DNA of 28,027 nucleotides from a virus, in IMG/VR virus record IMGVR_UViG_3300042352_000285, positions 1 through 28,027 of that record. The stretch is one strand, 5' to 3'. Numbering within the stretch: position 1 is the stretch's first letter; each line of letters begins with the position of its first letter. This document shows, in pieces, positions 1,910 to 23,551 of the stretch. The notes beneath the pieces were generated by a model. It made no database searches and was not told the origin of the DNA. It saw nothing but the letters and a program-made list of their open reading frames with translations. The translations under genes and the position numbers were made by a program.

Positions 1910-4900
1910 TTAATCTCCTAACAATCTGCCGAATAAGACATCGTATACTGCTTGTGTGTTTTCATTATAAAGGGCTAACTCTCTAAGTTTAAGAATAGTG
2001 TCATCCTTTAAGTACTTGATTAACTTTTGAGATCCACCAAACTGATCATAGTTTGCTTTCTCATCTTTATATTCTTTATAAGTTTTAGACATTTCTCTAA
2101 GTTTATCTTGAACATCTTTCCTAAGATCTATGTTTTGAGATAACATATTATCTAATTCATCCAAAGTATTTAAGCGATTAGCAGCTCTTTGAGAACCAGT
2201 TGTTCCTAATTCTTCTCTAACTAATGGGCGAGCTGCAAAGAACACATCTTTCCAAGCATCAAACTCTTTACGCAATTGAGTTCTTTCAAAATCTACTGTT
2301 GAATTTTCCAAAGAAGATTCAAATGCTTCTTTTCGCCTATAGTAGACTTGTAGATCTGAAGAAGTTTGCACTTCTCGTAGATAGTCATCTACTCGCTTAT
2401 TATAGGTCATACCCATTTCTCGCATAAGTTGATAGGTATCCCAAGAGAATCCAGTCTCGTGAGGTATTAAGAACCCAGCAGCATTAGGGAAGTCCTGGAA
2501 TATTTCTCTGTTGTTATCTACAAAATATCCTGACTGCTCAGCATATTTAAGTGGAGCAATAGACTTACGCTCTGATTCAGTTACTGTATATGGAACTTGG
2601 TTAGGGAATAACTCTACCCACTTAGCCATTGCTGCATCGTAATCACCAGGATACTTATCTAATAGATTATTAAATGCTTGTTTCCAATTAGCGCGACCAT
2701 TATCACTAATCCACTGTGCCATATCAGATTTAAGTTGGACTGCTGGTGATGCTGGTGCCAAAAATCCTAAAGCAAAACGAACTCTTAAAACTCCAAGAGT
2801 AGTGTTCTTAACCCTTATCCGATATTCCTCTTGCTCTGCCGAAGTAGGTGGTAATAGATTTTTTTCATCATCATATCTCTTTGGCAATCCATTACCAGAT
2901 GCTTCAAGATAGGTTACTGCTTTACGCCAAGCACTTGCATACTGAGAATTACGCTCATCAGTATCTAATGCACCAATCAAACGATTGATATGTGCTGGCA
3001 TTAAGGCTGAAAGAATAGGTCTATCTACAGAGTATTTACCTAATAGATATCCATCTAAACTATCTGCTGATTTTTCGTCAACAAAACCTAGTAAAGTTGT
3101 AACTGTTTTAACACTTGCTCCAGCTAATGGACCAGAAAATGTAGGAACTAAAGAATCTGGATTTAAAGATGGTGTAATCATCTTCAATTGAGCACCAAAC
3201 TCTACTGGGAATGGAGTCTTAAATTCATCTGCAATGCCTAAGCGAGATAATACATCTTGTATTGCATTGTAAACTGGTGCTATACCAGGATAAACAAAGT
3301 AGTCATTACCTTGGTCATCTTTTTGCACCCATCCTGAATGAGTTACACCTTCGTAGGTGAGGGCTGCTTTAACAAGTGCCTCTGGATTGTAACGAACAAC
3401 CCGATACATACGGCGATAGAAATCTTCAGTTGCTCTATAGAAACGAGCAAAGTTACGAGAATTAAAAGCAATTTGAGTTCTAATAAGTGGATTGTCTACA
3501 TATTGTAGAATCTGACTTACTGCTCTTTCCTGTACAGCACTAGCCAAAGCCACCTTAGCTCGTTCTGTTGCAATAGCTATACCAGTAGTATTAGTTGGAT
3601 CTATACCTGCGATATGAGATTCAATCCATTTTTTTTCAAAACCAGTCTTTTTCATTTCCTTACGAATTGCTACCATCTCATTTAATACTAAAGGTTGACG
3701 AGACAAGCGAGCATTTGCTAAACCAAGCCAAGCCCAACCTGTTCTCATAACAGTTGAAGTAGTTTGATCTAATGAGACCACTGGAACAAGAGTAGGTCCT
3801 GCGATTGCAAAAGGAATGTCTGCATCATCAGTAGGCATATCATCAATAGATAGTTTACCTTCTACCTTATATTTGCCAGACTTATCCATAACACGAATTT
3901 TATTTAAGAAGTCTAGATTAATATTACCATCGCGCTTAACAAAATGATCTTTAGAACGCTTAAAGGCAAGATCCAATAATTGAGATTCGCTCATATCGTT
4001 AGACAGTTGAGCATCCTTTAGATATTGTTTACCAGCTTTAGTCTGTAACCAAATACGACCTTGCTTTAAAAATTCACCCTGATCATCTAGATTAGCAATA
4101 GCAATTTTACCTAAATCATCATTAGCATAATACCCAATGCGAGACATCCAAGTATATATTGATGCTTCATCTTGTGTAGATATAGCTTGTGGAGTAAATG
4201 TTTGCTCACCAGGTTTTTTAACTAAAGTTTTTGGTATTGCAACTTGAAGAGGTACAACTTTTGTACCAGTTCTTTTAACTAAATCTTGAGCGCGACCTAC
4301 ATAATCAGTAGCACCACTTGCAAAATTGGATGCACTCTCTGATATTTCACCTAACGCGTTATCAACATCTCCATATTTAATTTGTTCTGTAAGGAGATCA
4401 GCTTCTTTTTTAGCAAATGGTTTTAAACCAAGTTTTTTTCTAAAACGATTAACCTTACCTGTAGTTAATGTTCTAGCAAATATTTCCCTGGTTTGTTTTG
4501 TAAGGCCACCCTTAACCACATATTCAAGTTCTTTAATTTTAAGTTCAATATCTGAAACGTCTATTGGATCTTTAGTTTTAGATAGTTTAATTCTTAATTT
4601 AGGAAGTTCAGATGAGGCATTATCAAAAGTCTTTTTTAATGTAGTAAGTTCTTTAGCTATATCATCTACTTCATTTTTGTTAACTAATCGCATAGCAAAT
4701 CCAAGAGGATTCTCAGACCATTTGACCTTACCTTCTGCTTTCATAGCGGCAGCTAAATAAGTGTTAATACGAGTTGAAAGAACTCTATTCTTAGCAACTC
4801 CCCAAACTGACTCACCAATAGCAAGATTCATCATTAGGTCTTCACCTGCGTTACGAAGGGCATAACGAGGTCCAGCAAGAGTTAAGAAGGACCAAGCACT

Positions 4901-7528: not shown

Positions 7529-9283
7529 TTATGCTGCTCCGCCAATGGAGGCGAGTAGTTGTGCGATATCAGGTCTAGGTCCAGCAGCAGGGGCCTCTCC
7601 GCTTTGTTGTTGTTCAGTTGGCTGCGAGGCAGGAACGGGGGCCGTTCCTACTGCTGGAATACTAGATTGTTCTGGAAGCGCCGGTGCTGTTGGTGCTACT
7701 GGCTGTGGTTCTGGTGCAAATGCTTTTTCTATAATAGTTTCTAATTGGAAACCTTTTTGTCTACCTTGTATTACTTCAGCAATTCTTGTAATGATTTGAG
7801 ATGGGTCTTGACCTTGGGCAGCAAGTGCGGGAATAGCTTGTGCATACTGAGCAACAGCAACCCTAAGAGAATCACGCATTTCTTCAATGTCAACTCTTTG
7901 TTCTTCTTGCGTAACATTTAACTCCATTGGTATTTCTCGGCGAACATAATCACGGGACACTAACTTATCGCTACGCATTTGTAGTAATGCAATGATGGCA
8001 CGGTTAGGATCCATACCAGACATAATGCCGTAACGTACATCTACGCCATACTCGCCTTTAATATCACGAGATGGTGTGTACTTCATTGTATAAGGTGTAC
8101 CGTCATCGGTTCCCTTAATAGTCTTGGTCATATTACCAAAGACAATCTCATCTACTTCAAAGCAAAGTGAGGTTAACTCTTGGAACAATCTAGCAAACTG
8201 CGCTTGTGCTGCTTTAACTTGTGTATCAAAGCCAGCTTGTAATGCCTGAACTCCACGACCTGTAACAACGGAGGCATCAATATTGCCTGAACGAGATTCA
8301 GGGTAGCGAGAACCTAATCTTAACTCACGCTCTAGTACACCAGACTCTGTAAATACTCCTGCTGGTAGTTCTAGTGGAACTCTACGGATACCTTGTGGGT
8401 TAGCAGACCTCATAATCGCATCAGGTCCTAGTGCTAACTCCTGTACATCTTGTGGAATAGCGATAGGTGCTTGAATAGATTTCTCTGCTGCTTGGATCTG
8501 CAATACTGCAAAACGAGCACGGGCTAACTGAACGGATAGAACATCATCAAACTGTCCACGAGCTTCACCATCTAAGGATGAACGAAGTGCAACTCTTGCT
8601 AAACACTTACCGACTGGGTTAGGTGTATTAGATAGAACTAAGTTATTACGTTCTGGTATAAAAATTAAGTCTTGATCTTTGTCGTGGTATCTAACGATAG
8701 ATAGGTAAGGGGAAGCGTAAGAATAAACTGTCTTGCCAACTATCTGATCGTAATACTCAGGATACTGGGAAGCAATACTCTCAGCATCGGATGCAATGAT
8801 CTGTGATATAGATAAGCAACGACCAAATCGGTCTACCTCAGGGTATACACCAAAAGGATTTAGTAAACGAATACGAGGATTGTTTGTCTCATAATCCATT
8901 TCAATCATTGCTGGCAATAGACCGTAGGTATTAAAGTAATCAGCACCGGTATACATCTGGATCTGTAGATCAGATGATGCTACATAGTAATTAGCAATAC
9001 GAGTTCTAGTATCAGCAGCACGGCGTTGGGTATCAGATACCATATTGGTTGCTGCACAGTTAAAGGATGGCAGTGGTGCCATTACCTCTGCTAGATCACG
9101 AGCAGCTACATCTACAAAGTTTGCAACTAAAGGCTTTGGGTAATCCTCTGAAAACATCGCTGGATATACTTTTGATATATCACCTTGGCGCACAGAAAGA
9201 ACATCGCGCATACGCTGGTCTCTAGCTGCATAGCGGTTCTTCAACCGATCTATCTTTGAGACTACCTCTTTAGTTGATAACAA
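7529..9283 (-). CDS. Portal protein
   Basis: This is the predicted dodecameric portal that forms the DNA entry and exit vertex of the capsid. The product is 584 residues, a usual size. The N-terminal third has the mixed alpha/beta layout of phage portals (NRYAARDQRMRDVLSVRQGD, then FVDVAARDLAEVMAPLPSFN). The central part holds SLLCFEVD-like stem and crown regions around residues 370-420. The C-terminal 80 residues are Pro/Ala/Gln-rich and probably disordered. A TTG start at 9283 follows GGAGCAATA. The gene lies directly after the terminase with a nine-base gap, the canonical order, which strengthens the call. I cannot assign a portal subfamily from sequence alone. Confidence 0.85.
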   Translation of the reverse strand: MLSTKEVVSKIDRLKNRYAARDQRMRDVLSVRQGDISKVYPAMFSEDYPKPLVANFVDVAARDLAEVMAPLPSFNCAATNMVSDTQRRAADTRTRIANYYVASSDLQIQMYTGADYFNTYGLLPAMIEMDYETNNPRIRLLNPFGVYPEVDRFGRCLSISQIIASDAESIASQYPEYYDQIVGKTVYSYASPYLSIVRYHDKDQDLIFIPERNNLVLSNTPNPVGKCLARVALRSSLDGEARGQFDDVLSVQLARARFAVLQIQAAEKSIQAPIAIPQDVQELALGPDAIMRSANPQGIRRVPLELPAGVFTESGVLERELRLGSRYPESRSGNIDASVVTGRGVQALQAGFDTQVKAAQAQFARLFQELTSLCFEVDEIVFGNMTKTIKGTDDGTPYTMKYTPSRDIKGEYGVDVRYGIMSGMDPNRAIIALLQMRSDKLVSRDYVRREIPMELNVTQEEQRVDIEEMRDSLRVAVAQYAQAIPALAAQGQDPSQIITRIAEVIQGRQKGFQLETIIEKAFAPEPQPVAPTAPALPEQSSIPAVGTAPVPASQPTEQQQSGEAPAAGPRPDIAQLLASIGGAA

Positions 9284-19628: not shown

Positions 19629-19975
19629 TGCTTCTCCTTTAGCCATTGTGTTAGGTCTTGGATTACCCAAGTCTTGTCTATTCCTGCGTTTCTTCTTTTG
19701 TATAGTACATAAGATAAAGGCTGATCAACGCCACGATGCTTAGCGTAATTAGCAGCTTCTGTTTGCGCTTCATCCCAAAACTCCTTCAAGTTTAATTTCT
19801 TAGTATTCTTTAATTCAAAGACAAAGGTTTTACCAGCAACTATAACTACTAGATCTCCCTCATCCTCTGCTCCTGATAAGCGTAAGCGTTCAGCTACTGC
19901 GCCCATCTTTCTAAACCACTTCATTACATCTACTTCAAACTGAGAACCCTTTTGTTTATTGTACTTGGCTGACAT
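19625..19975 (-). CDS. Holliday-junction-resolvase-like PD-(D/E)XK nuclease
   Basis: The 116-residue product has the archaeal-type resolvase layout. It shows KYNKQKGSQFEVDVMKWFRK (early Glu), then LSGAEDEGDLVVIVAGKT (catalytic Asp in EGDL) and FVFELKNTKKLNLKEFW (E-x-K). It would cut four-way or other branched DNA during recombination-dependent replication. It overlaps the helicase gene by 20 bases and is followed by three tiny genes. A second junction nuclease (endonuclease VII-like) lies 2 kb downstream, so the phage may have two systems for branch resolution. Confidence 0.8.
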   Translation of the reverse strand: MSAKYNKQKGSQFEVDVMKWFRKMGAVAERLRLSGAEDEGDLVVIVAGKTFVFELKNTKKLNLKEFWDEAQTEAANYAKHRGVDQPLSYVLYKRRNAGIDKTWVIQDLTQWLKEKQ

Positions 19976-20798
19976 TTATTAGGGCATCCCTTCTATACAT
20001 CCGACCATACTCATCTGCATCACTGATCTGACACACAGAATAGTTTACGAATAAGGTAACAAAGTCTGAGCCATCTGCTGTGTGTGGTCCAAATCTATTC
20101 TTAACTGGTGCCACCTTTAAGGTGCCATCTAGTGGATCAAAACCAAGAGTAAGTATTAATGCAGGTAGTTGTGATACCTTGCCGTGAATAGCCCTACGAT
20201 GAGGTGGGAAGCTGGTCTTACCATACTCAGTCTGCTCTGAAACGTGGTGTAAAACCATCACACAAGCCTCAGTCTTACGAGCCATATCGTGGAAGTCCAC
20301 CATAATAGCTCGTAGTCCTGCCCACTCATTGTCAGTTTCAGCAGCCACATTCATTAAGTTATCAACAACAATCAACTCTGGTGGAATACCATAGAGTTCA
20401 ACATAAGCCTTGATCTCTAACTCAATATCATCTAGTGATGGTGATGAGTCAAAGACAAACTGTATGTTAGACATATCCTCTAGGTGCTTATCGTAGTAAT
20501 GACGGTTACTATTTAAGTTACCTTCCACCAGTAGCTGACTGTGTCCTGATAGGTGAGAGGCTGCTCTCATCATCACAGTTGCTATGTCGGTATCAGCCGA
20601 GAAAAATAAAGTTGGAACCTTTGCTTTAACTGCATAGATAAGAGCAAACATACTCTTACCAGCATTAGGTGCGGCGGCAACCATACATACCTGACCTCTA
20701 CGAAATTTGATCTGCTTTTTAGCAAGATCATTCCATACATCAGGTAATGGAGTTGCACTGGTATTACTACCACGCCACGCTCTATCTATATTAAGCAA
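19956..20798 (-). CDS. RecA/DnaB-like ATPase, probable replicative helicase
   Basis: The 280-residue product has Walker A AAPNAGKSM (residues about 42-50), a helix-strand block with TLFFSADTDI (about 63-72), Walker B ELIVVDN (about 141-147) and a sensor-like VMVLHHVSEQ (about 185). The C-terminal part has APVKNRFGPHT, resembling the arginine finger region of DnaB-family hexamers. It lacks the DnaB N-terminal domain, as is common in small phages. It should unwind DNA together with the split primase. The start is a TTG at 20798, with GAGAGGA upstream inside the WhiB gene's end. Confidence 0.8.
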   Translation of the reverse strand: MLNIDRAWRGSNTSATPLPDVWNDLAKKQIKFRRGQVCMVAAAPNAGKSMFALIYAVKAKVPTLFFSADTDIATVMMRAASHLSGHSQLLVEGNLNSNRHYYDKHLEDMSNIQFVFDSSPSLDDIELEIKAYVELYGIPPELIVVDNLMNVAAETDNEWAGLRAIMVDFHDMARKTEACVMVLHHVSEQTEYGKTSFPPHRRAIHGKVSQLPALILTLGFDPLDGTLKVAPVKNRFGPHTADGSDFVTLFVNYSVCQISDADEYGRMYRRDALINVSQVQ

Positions 20799-21054
20799 CG
20801 TGTTCCTCTCTGGAAAGACTTATCCCTTTTGCTACTCTAATTTTTTTTCTCTTTATTGCAGTCATACCGCCCCAAGTACCAAAGCGTTCTCTCTTAATGC
20901 CCCACTCAGCACACTCTGCTAAATGGGGACAGATCTTACAAACGTTAATTGCTTGTTGAGTATGGATCTTATCGTCATCATCTATTTCAGGATAGAAAAT
21001 TTCCATTCCCACTTCAGCGCAAGCTGGGTTCTCATACTTCCAGGGAACCCGCAC
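20791..21054 (-). CDS. WhiB-family transcriptional regulator
   Basis: This 87-residue protein has four Cys in WhiB spacing. These are Cys12 (NPACAE), then NVCKICPHLAEC (Cys39, Cys42, Cys48), which would bind a 4Fe-4S cluster. The GTWGGMT turn (residues about 59-65) follows, then a basic tail KRKKIRVAK for DNA contact. WhiB proteins occur essentially only in Actinobacteria and their phages and act with the primary sigma factor. It is the strongest host clue here. A phage WhiB may repress host WhiB targets or phage promoters. The start codon is GTG. Confidence 0.9.
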   Translation of the reverse strand: MRVPWKYENPACAEVGMEIFYPEIDDDDKIHTQQAINVCKICPHLAECAEWGIKRERFGTWGGMTAIKRKKIRVAKGISLSREEHVA

Positions 21055-21057
21055 CTG

Positions 21058-21429
21058 CTATCTAATCCAGACGGTTTCGCATTTGTCTACAGCACCTTTA
21101 GGTGCAGCACACATCCAACCTTTCCAAGGACCTTTCTGTCCTACGCCTGAGCGAAATGCCATTGAGCCGTGCTTACAATCAGGATTATCTCCTGCTGGTA
21201 CTGCAACCTGTGTCGCACCTAGTGCTGCTTTAGCATAGGAAACTGCGCCACCTGATGACTGTGCGCTGACACCGAGTGAGGTGCCAGTTGATGTTACTAA
21301 TGTTGCTACGTCAGCAATTGAAGTTAGAGATGCCTCTAATTCAGCCTGACTAGTTGCATAAATATTTACTAGAGTTCCATCGCCTAACTTGTAGTTGATT
21401 TGGAACTTGGTGCTTTCCGGTGCAGCCAT
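21058..21429 (-). CDS. Conserved zinc-ribbon-like replication-operon protein, 123 aa
   Basis: The ATG follows GGAGGTAAGTAA. The N-terminal half is a small strand-helix domain (FQINYKLGDGTLVNIYATS). A Ser/Ala/Gly-rich linker separates it from a C-terminal Cys/His module with CKHGSMAFRSGVGQKGPW, KGWMC and DKC. From memory this C-terminal pattern is widespread in actinophages and other phages next to recombination nucleases. It probably binds zinc and perhaps single-stranded DNA. No direct evidence for the role is visible. Confidence 0.75.
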   Translation of the reverse strand: MAAPESTKFQINYKLGDGTLVNIYATSQAELEASLTSIADVATLVTSTGTSLGVSAQSSGGAVSYAKAALGATQVAVPAGDNPDCKHGSMAFRSGVGQKGPWKGWMCAAPKGAVDKCETVWIR

Positions 21430-22386
21430 TTACTTACCTCCAGTATGTTTGACAGTTAATCTAACTGATTCCTGTCCTTGTTTCTTTGGTACAAAACCGA
21501 GAAGTTTCTCAACCTCTTCGGCATCTACTGATTCTCTACCACTAACTGTGCTCCATAGTATGGATACACCACTATTGGTATTACCAGTAAATCCTTCTAA
21601 CGCAGCTTTTAATGACTCGCGTTCACTAGTCAGTTCCTTTATCTTTACATCTAATTGTAAATACTTCAAGGCCGATGTGTCTACCTCAGGATTATCTATG
21701 AAGATTTCACCTTCCTTGATACGTTCTTTTTTTAGACCAGTACATCCCATCTCGCCCGACTCATCAAAGTACTTGCAATAGAACTTGCAATAGTTTTGAT
21801 CGCGCTCTGGCTCTGGTGCATCTGCGCTCTCTTTAATAGCAGATAACCAATTCAAAGCATCTTCTGCTAACTTCGGATCATAAGGTTCTGAATGAACCTT
21901 GACATCTCTTTCATCACCATCTCTGGCAATGGCTACTAGATTAACAGTTCTGGGCTTCCCCTTACCAGACTTGTCAAGCAAGTAGCCATAGACCTGAACT
22001 TGCCAGCGCTGTTGTAGCGATGGGAAGTAAGATAGATTCTTAACCTTAACGGTTTTCCAATCTATCACATCTCCTGTCTCTGGTATATATAAATCTATGT
22101 GAGCTTTCATTCCGTTGTATTCAACAGATGTTTCAACCCAGTACTTTTCACCCTTTGGATCTGCAACTGATATTGCTTTCTCTATCTCAGCGTGGATGGC
22201 AGTACCCATAATAGCTGACAACTTTAATTCGTTATCATTAGTTTCAGGTTGATCGTTAAGACGATACCAAACCTTACGCCGGCAACCACCTAACTCTGAT
22301 GGACCTACCTGTGTCTGTTTAGATCTAGCCCTACCAGCATCTTTATCTCGTAGTACTTGAAGTAATAATTCTTTTGGATCAGTCAT
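21430..22386 (-). CDS. Cas4/RecB-like exonuclease
   Basis: The 318-residue product shows the RecB-family PD-(D/E)XK set. It has GTAIHAEIEK (His65), KAHIDLYIPE (Asp98), DVIDWKTVK (Asp109, Lys111) and QRWQVQVYGYL (Gln and Tyr). Four Cys, one early (GGCRRKVWY, Cys35) and three late (CKFYCKY and MGC, Cys200, Cys204, Cys215), match a Cas4-type iron-sulfur cluster. It would degrade DNA ends for recombination or host DNA breakdown. No CRISPR array is present, so it is a phage recombination enzyme. The C-terminal coiled coil (about 245-270) may mediate partner binding. Confidence 0.85.
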   Translation of the reverse strand: MTDPKELLLQVLRDKDAGRARSKQTQVGPSELGGCRRKVWYRLNDQPETNDNELKLSAIMGTAIHAEIEKAISVADPKGEKYWVETSVEYNGMKAHIDLYIPETGDVIDWKTVKVKNLSYFPSLQQRWQVQVYGYLLDKSGKGKPRTVNLVAIARDGDERDVKVHSEPYDPKLAEDALNWLSAIKESADAPEPERDQNYCKFYCKYFDESGEMGCTGLKKERIKEGEIFIDNPEVDTSALKYLQLDVKIKELTSERESLKAALEGFTGNTNSGVSILWSTVSGRESVDAEEVEKLLGFVPKKQGQESVRLTVKHTGGK

Positions 22387-22565
22387 TCTTTACCTCTTAC
22401 CATATTTGCAAAAGATTTAACATCATTTATATACCAATCAATAGCCTCTGGTGTGCGACCACCAATAGCCATCCATAAAAAAGAAACATCACTGCCAGAT
22501 TTTTCAATCTCTTGTGCAATCTGCTCTCGCAGATCCTCTTCAAAGACCTTTAATGTTTTCTCCAT
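22383..22565 (-). CDS. Small hypothetical protein, 60 aa
   Basis: The product begins MEKTLKVFEEDLREQIAQEI and continues FLWMAIGGRTPEAIDWYIND, an all-helical acidic protein without Cys. Its stop overlaps the nuclease start (ATGA) and its start abuts the Ntn-hydrolase stop. No family is recognised. Its tight placement suggests a partner of either neighbour. Confidence 0.7.
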   Translation of the reverse strand: MEKTLKVFEEDLREQIAQEIEKSGSDVSFLWMAIGGRTPEAIDWYINDVKSFANMVRGKE

Positions 22566-23132
22566 TTACTTAACCTTCCGCTTTTGTATTGCTATCTGTA
22601 TTGGTGGACAAGTATTGATATCTAATTGAGCAGATATCTCTATAGCTTTCTGTGCTATCTCAACTGCTGCATCCTGGTTCATAATCTGATAGTCAAGTGA
22701 GTATAAGTATCCGGTAGCAAACTGACCGCCTGAACCAATACCATAAACCTTCAGTTCATTTTGAATGAATGACATATCACAAGCAATATGAAACAGATTA
22801 GAATCAAAGGCTATTAGATAGTCAAAGCCACCATCCTTCTTATCAACATTAGCCCAGTCATAAGCGTTCTTATTGAAGGCGTTGATAATAGATGGAATCA
22901 TTTTCTTACCCATAAACTGGACAGGATCTTCACCTCTATATGTTGGTGGCTTCCAGTTATAAGTTAAGATATCACCAGCTCTAGTATCACCGGTAATTCC
23001 AATGGCAACATAACCAACTTGAACTATCTTTGGTGTGCCTAAACTAATTGTTCTAAGATTATCTTCAGTGATCTGCGAATCCGCAGCGAGAACTACATAA
23101 CCATTTCCTTGAATACCAACAACCGTAGTCAA
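22566..23132 (-). CDS. Proteasome-beta/HslV-like Ntn hydrolase
   Basis: The 188-residue product begins M-TTVVGIQGNGYVVLAADSQ. After Met removal, Thr1 would be the nucleophile, Asp falls exactly at position 17 (AADSQ), and Lys aligns one residue after the canonical Lys33 (GTPKIVQVG). A GITGDTRAG turn and the IGSGGQFATG motif (residues about 132-141) match the proteasome beta/HslV Ser-Gly-Gly region. No alpha subunit or HslU-like ATPase is in the window, so it may act alone or with host partners. TTG is the start, with AGGAGGGG upstream. It heads the replication operon. Confidence 0.8.
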   Translation of the reverse strand: MTTVVGIQGNGYVVLAADSQITEDNLRTISLGTPKIVQVGYVAIGITGDTRAGDILTYNWKPPTYRGEDPVQFMGKKMIPSIINAFNKNAYDWANVDKKDGGFDYLIAFDSNLFHIACDMSFIQNELKVYGIGSGGQFATGYLYSLDYQIMNQDAAVEIAQKAIEISAQLDINTCPPIQIAIQKRKVK

Positions 23133-23159
23133 TTCAGCCCCTCCTTTTATCTTGGATTA

Positions 23160-23168
23160 ATTGTAGCA
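23160..23168 (-). promoter_or_regulatory. Extended -10 promoter of the replication operon, TGCTACAAT
   Basis: Reading leftward, TGC then TACAAT lies about 30 bases before the TTG start of the Ntn-hydrolase gene. The same nine bases occur before the early gene at 12906. No good -35 is visible. It is well placed for the whole minus-strand operon. Confidence 0.5.
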
Positions 23169-23273
23169 CTAGGCACCGACAATGCTGGGATGCGAAAAGG
23201 ACACGCCGAGGATACGATCCTTATCGGTTACTAGTCCAAGAATGTGTACCATATGAGCCGTGAGGCGAATTAC

Positions 23274-23314: not shown

Positions 23315-23551
23315 ATGTTCCGTCTACCAAACCTGCGAAAAAATAAAGAGAACCTACCACCTAAATTTGGTACAGATCTAAGGTCCTTAGGACCATTACA
23401 CGCCTGTCCTTGTGGCTCTAAAGTATTCTCTATTCTTGCAACCTTTGATGATTTTGAGATCTCCTGGTATATGTTAGATGCAACCTGTGCTAACTGTGGC
23501 AATCTAATACTTGTACCCTGTCCAATAGATGATCCAGCTAGGGAAATTTAG
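23315..23551 (+). CDS. Lone zinc-ribbon protein, 78 aa
   Basis: The only plus-strand gene in the right half. The product begins MFRLPNLRKNKENLPPKFG, then has HACPCGSKVFSILATFDD, DATCANCGNLILVPCPI. Two knuckles (CPC and CANC) plus a later Cys give a zinc ribbon. From memory, similar CPCGS...CANCG proteins are frequent in environmental phages. There is no clear ribosome site, but a GATAGT element at 23300-23305 lies about ten bases before the ATG, so a leaderless transcript is possible. The function is unknown. Confidence 0.75.
   Translation: MFRLPNLRKNKENLPPKFGTDLRSLGPLHACPCGSKVFSILATFDDFEISWYMLDATCANCGNLILVPCPIDDPAREI

Follow-up and report, generated by a model that had tools for sequence, protein, structure and literature searches.

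What does a virus do with a peptidase built like a proteasome subunit? This question is raised by one locus in a 28,027-nt stretch of viral DNA (IMG/VR record IMGVR_UViG_3300042352_000285, positions 1 to 28,027), which is called the window here. An initial annotation of the locus had proposed a proteasome-beta/HslV-like Ntn hydrolase at the head of a replication operon. The peptidase gene is real, functional-looking, widespread and of a published kind. What is new is its core status in freshwater actinophages, its occurrence at two genomic positions and the conserved operator-like motif upstream of it.

Fold, catalytic residues and partners

The ORF has exactly the annotated coordinates and is encoded on the minus strand (Table 1). 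Its start codon is TTG, and the reading frame meets a stop only a few codons further upstream, with no alternative start in between. Most relatives in the window's clade have TTG, ATG or GTG at the same position, followed by Thr-Thr. The peptidase ORFs of three relatives (L072:754, L075:4229 and L097:3277) appear to start with an Ile codon at the place of ATG, GTG or TTG in the others. In L072 and L075 this codon is ATC with a Shine-Dalgarno sequence, possibly a rare start codon.

Table 1. Features of the window around the peptidase gene, with the portal gene for comparison
Feature	Position	Strand	Remark
Divergent 78-aa CxC...CxxC protein	23315..23551	plus	upstream boundary of the operon; 70/70 loci
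Operator-like 8-mer GGCGTGTC	23200..23207	minus	sole copy of the motif in the window
-10-like TACAAT	23160..23165	minus	downstream of the operator-like motif; predicted from sequence only
Shine-Dalgarno AGGAGG	23140..23145	minus	7-nt spacing to the TTG start; close relatives share the layout
Proteasome/HslV-fold Ntn hydrolase gene	22566..23132	minus	188 aa, 188 codons
Codon of mature Thr1	23129-23127	minus	catalytic
Codon of Asp17	23081-23079	minus	catalytic
Codon of Lys34	23030-23028	minus	catalytic
Codon of Gly47	22991-22989	minus	
Codon of Ser133	22733-22731	minus	in GSGG
60-aa ORF	22383..22565	minus	begins right after the peptidase stop; unconserved in the clade
PD-(D/E)XK nuclease (RecB/Cas4-like exonuclease)	21430..22386	minus	conserved next gene
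Mycobacteriophage L5 gp49-like protein	21058..21429	minus	conserved
WhiB-like regulator	20791..21054	minus	actinophage marker
DnaB-like replicative helicase	19956..20798	minus	
Portal-like protein	7529..9283	minus	52% identical to the LanE43-AprE7 portal; peptidase gene not behind it

The window protein matches the Pfam Proteasome family (E 3.5e-13; 50.1 bits against a cut-off of 22.4 bits) and phrog_1040, "peptidase HslV family" (E 4.9e-25); in alignment A5, all 46 other members match phrog_1040 as well. An AlphaFold2 model from 47 diverse sequences (pLDDT 92.6, pTM 0.88) has the four-layer Ntn fold of proteasomes, with helices H1 at residues 50-58, H2 at 70-88, H3 at 136-144 and H4 at 153-170. 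It superseded a poor earlier model from 39 close relatives (pLDDT 47.8). VIA-align gave Z scores of 19.8-21.1 over 157-174 residues against proteasome beta and BPH chains. When solved structures were searched with Foldseek, BPH came first (2e-12), then HslV and proteasome beta. A phage-only profile of window-type proteins (A1), run against PDB sequences, also matched BPH best (5ovs, 1e-7) and HslV next (8.5e-5). Two overlapping scans of IMG/VR gave at least 581 and at least 560 confirmed relatives, and plasmids gave four matches only, all distant. Since Pfam, phrog_1040, the AlphaFold2 and VIA comparisons and the large number of viral relatives agree, the proteasome-like identity is not due to chance, and the fold proposed at the outset is borne out. 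The NCBIfam HslV models scored only 36.2 bits against a cut-off of 137 and 35.4 against 157.75, and matches to the archaeal and bacterial beta models were also far under their cut-offs. Thus, the protein is a relative within the family, and not an equivalog of HslV or of a 20S subunit.

After removal of Met, the protein has Thr1, Asp17, Lys34 (one past the canonical 33), Gly47 and IGSGG at 131-135, which include all of the residues claimed from the sequence and the set that marks the proteasome-like family (Thr1/Ser1, Asp17, the Lys33 equivalent and Gly47). For their conservation, 213 distinct relatives were compared, drawn from IMG/VR, from cultured phages and from a small number of bacterial genomes; one relative is truncated at the N-terminus. 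The nucleophile is Thr in 206 and Ser in 6 of the 212 relatives that cover it, position 17 is Asp in 208 and Glu in 4 (again 212/212), and Lys34 is invariant (213/213). Gly47 is found in 208/213 and Ser or Thr at position 133 in 213/213. The homologs with Glu in place of Asp17 (L263, L288, L294 and L295) are related and belong to one branch of the phage family. The gene is under purifying selection, with dN/dS of 0.04-0.11 in closely related pairs. In the window's clade, conservation is highest at residues 18-36 together with 46-60. The former stretch is the S2-S3 loop, in which 15 of 19 columns are invariant, and its longest invariant run of 11 columns was matched by 19 of 20,000 shuffles. 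The S2-S3 loop forms part of the S1 pocket in proteasomes, so that its conservation suggests that substrate preference is probably fixed.

Profile searches gave no partner, in line with the annotated absence of an alpha subunit and an unfoldase. Each genome has one homolog of the peptidase. No HslU/ClpX-type ATPase (PF07724) was found in 13 relatives, in LanE43-AprE7 or in three other cultured phages (controls 14/14), and neither the window nor the 13 relatives gave a PF00004 match. A PF00004 match in LanE43-AprE7 was rejected as an unfoldase because it falls in the DnaB-like ORF. Pup ligase was absent from the window-type records and detected in the control genomes. These searches covered records that are near-full-length with uncertified completeness, and a small or divergent partner could escape them. 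The 60-aa ORF directly downstream was considered as a partner and rejected, being unconserved in the clade. With one homolog per genome and no propeptide, the protein lacks the propeptide and alpha partner of a 20S beta subunit; it likewise lacks the equivalog score of HslV and an HslU encoded along with it.

Core status and two genomic positions

The terminase (terL) of the window is 46% identical to that of Planktophila phage LanE43-AprE7 (OX376640), and portal, lysis and replication genes are conserved between the two. On the basis of these genes and WhiB, the window belongs to one family with LanE43-AprE7, whose host of isolation is 'Ca. Planktophila' strain LanE-43 (PMC10202952), and the hosts of this family, as judged from such sequence markers, are very probably actinobacteria. 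Thirteen window-type records carry exactly one homolog of the peptidase each, as does LanE43-AprE7. Contigs were also chosen by DnaB, so that their selection was independent of the peptidase gene; here, the peptidase was found in 29/29 window-type loci with coverage and in 14/14 sister-type records. The peptidase is a core single-copy gene of the large freshwater actinophage family that includes LanE43-AprE7. As a separate observation, the virion module of LanE43-AprE7 encodes a 530-aa protein (L083:15339-16931) with a long Gly-Thr repeat, the tract length of which could vary.

The proposed first place in the replication operon was confirmed: in all 119 loci of the window's clade with enough downstream DNA, the peptidase gene is followed by genes for the RecB/Cas4-like nuclease, the gp49-like protein, WhiB and DnaB. 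The gp49-like protein matches Pfam Phage_gp49 (mycobacteriophage L5/D29 gene 49), which makes its PHROG label, "ribonucleoside reductase class II", doubtful. The divergent CxC...CxxC protein upstream has no PHROG match. What did not hold is the use of this operon position as a clue to function, as the single-copy homolog of the sister phages adjoins the portal gene instead. In 63 of 66 sister-clade loci (three loci from a different phage group, DSL-LC01-type, L228-L230, also belong to this set), the peptidase gene immediately follows the portal gene and precedes the gene for a virion-module protein of ~1700 aa. It is thus in the head module in the sister clade and outside it in the window's clade, and the genomes of the two clades are otherwise largely syntenic. 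The replication module of LanE43-AprE7 is arranged as in the window, with a PD-(D/E)XK-type nuclease (by eye), a gp49-like protein, DnaB, a nuclease and primase, and has no peptidase gene at its head. When an AU test asked whether the window-type and portal-linked clades descend from one ancestor, p was 0.23, a value compatible with either answer. In other actinophage-like contigs (L233, L253 and L268; ORFs read by eye), the peptidase is among replication genes, and in L241 (also read by eye) and DSL-LC01 it adjoins WhiB. The peptidase gene of L238 is flanked by what look like terminase and portal genes, and probable genes for scaffold and capsid come next (by eye). Because the position is specific to each clade, it is a poor guide to function, and a replication role deduced from placement in the replication operon was rejected on the sister-clade comparison.

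A short motif upstream of the gene is also conserved. In 32 of 33 long loci from the window's clade (L002-L140), the 8-mer GGCGTGTC, or GACACGCC, is found no more than 75 bp before the start codon, a count that reflects conservation among related loci and not independent events. Its position varies from -24 to -75 in either orientation, its expected chance from base composition is ~0.003 per locus, and some loci carry it as half of an inverted repeat, GTGTC...GACAC. The motif may serve as an operator for the replication operon. A sigma-70 consensus scan upstream of the peptidase gave no full promoter. In several relatives, the start codon is 5-9 nt after a TANNNT hexamer, a spacing that may be interpreted as resembling leaderless mRNAs.

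Possible roles during infection

On balance, the protein is probably a stand-alone, self-assembling, unfoldase-independent threonine peptidase of group I and of the BPH type, with a host protein early in infection as its most likely target. Of the parts of this reading, peptidase activity is likely, judging from the sequence and the model, and the early host-protein target is tentative. The start Met would be removed by the host methionine aminopeptidase to expose Thr1, with no propeptide to be cleaved, and the subunits would form a single or double ring that encloses the active sites. Thr1 would then attack the peptide bond with the assistance of Lys34 and Asp17, and Gly47 would provide the oxyanion hole. 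Without an unfoldase, the targets would be peptides or unfolded or exposed segments, and the conserved S2-S3 loop (residues 18-36) may set the preference among them. Expression in the window's clade would be driven by a regulated promoter, with the peptidase gene in first place in a presumably early replication operon. The peptidase would act in trans, in a step required by all phages of the LanE43-AprE7/window family. Degradation or trimming of a particular host protein, or a class of them, early in infection is the most likely form of this step, followed in likelihood by the trimming of a phage protein. The portal-adjacent gene of the sister clade does not favor a role that is early only.

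That sister-clade position leads to another explanation, in which the substrates of the peptidase are scaffold, portal-associated or internal virion proteins, processed in or beside the procapsid. The slot behind the portal gene is the usual place of the head-maturation protease in many phages, and it is occupied by the peptidase in 63/66 sister-clade loci; the arrangement in L238 points the same way, and PHROG/Pfam scans of the LanE43-AprE7 head genes examined named no other protease. Nevertheless, a role in virion morphogenesis seems unlikely. The window's clade keeps the gene in the replication operon, and Streptomyces phage Immanuel3 has homologous terL and portal genes and no peptidase homolog. 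In addition, the LanE43-AprE7 capsid matches Phage_capsid_3, a type that usually matures without proteolysis. Destruction of a host antiphage protein is rather improbable. It would suit a core, trans-acting gene that one clade keeps in its replication operon, and the movement of the gene between modules fits a function independent of its neighbors. However, genes for counter-defence tend to be accessory and patchy in distribution, whereas the peptidase is present in every genome of the family checked, and PADLOC gave no match to it.

The protein might instead join a host AAA+ unfoldase, or compete with host 20S subunits, and so redirect or block host protein degradation; interference with the actinobacterial proteasome was one of three functions suggested in the initial annotation, beside the cutting of host proteins and the processing of phage proteins. 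Many actinobacteria possess a 20S proteasome, the hosts very probably belong to this group (from WhiB, the terL identity and the host of LanE43-AprE7), and the PF07724 and PF00004 searches gave no unfoldase of the phage's own. This explanation is quite improbable, given that no alpha subunit is encoded and that pull-downs with BPH recovered no ATPase partner (PMC5777263). We found no relevant paper on a proteasome in Nanopelagicales. It is very improbable that the same Ntn fold serves a non-protease role, as an amidase or a connectase-like ligase. Connectase, a monomeric protein ligase, does belong to the proteasome-like family (PMC8665760), but the signature helices of connectase lie in a long insertion early in the fold that the model lacks, and the nearest relatives are BPH and HslV.

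If the stand-alone peptidase reading is followed to its full extent, the gene would encode a viral self-assembling "mini-proteasome" with a dedicated substrate, obligatory for a whole phage family on abundant freshwater bacteria and probably a proteasome-homolog subfamily of its own, and would have changed places between the replication and head modules, with neither loss nor duplication in the genomes seen. This larger picture is possible but rather doubtful. Proteasome homologs in phages are known only as sequences, as far as the literature we found goes, and the isolated pair of LanE43-AprE7 and 'Ca. Planktophila' LanE-43 offers a place to test one. The invariable presence of the gene in this freshwater actinophage family, at two genome positions, makes its role in infection worth testing.

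Comparison with known systems

The window protein falls within phrog_1040, a broad family for which we know of no tested function, but forms part of a distinct, well-supported actinophage clade in it (100/98). Fuchs, Alva and Lupas (2021) described the group I proteasome homologs PPH, AAH and CPH in tailed phages, with neither AAA+ partners nor a gene context hinting at function (PMC8665760). Thus, the window gene is not a one-off. PPH is ~140 aa long and lacks helix H2 (PMC8665760); by these published criteria the window protein is not a PPH, because it has 188 aa and its model includes H2 (residues 70-88). AAH and CPH, compared by their published description only, resemble it in belonging to group I, in occurring in tailed phages and in having no AAA+ partner; the same survey found no Actinobacteria-specific phages with AAH (PMC8665760).

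Among solved structures, BPH (5ovs/5ovt/5ovu) is both the best sequence-profile match and the top Foldseek match. Like the window protein, it has no propeptide, a Thr or Ser nucleophile and no unfoldase found, and its Lys is also shifted, to 37 as compared with 34. In BPH, which serves best as a working model for the window protein, Met is removed to expose Thr1 without a propeptide, epoxomicin is bound, the assembly is a tetradecamer and no unfoldase is known (PMC5777263). The BPH tetradecamer is a double ring with an acidic pore loop, and the model of the window protein is of a monomer. Although its active site is competent, BPH did not degrade the model substrates tried (PMC5777263), so that activity may need a cofactor. 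Identity between BPH and the phage protein is ~20-23%. Bacterial BPH-like loci, one of which (L094) matches 5ovu at 3.7e-41, form their own tree branch (100/99), and the phage protein did not group with them.

HslV (ClpQ) shares the fold and Thr1/Asp17/GSGG with the window protein, which differs in having no HslU and in scoring far under the NCBIfam cut-offs. A separate arrangement is seen in the jumbo Escherichia phage 121Q (L088), where ClpP-like and HslV-like protease genes are almost adjacent (2900-4432). A cultured counterpart is the homolog of LanE43-AprE7 (OX376640, 7500-8036), single-copy in a largely syntenic phage and 27.5% identical to the window protein: it lies behind the portal gene, whereas the window gene heads the replication operon.
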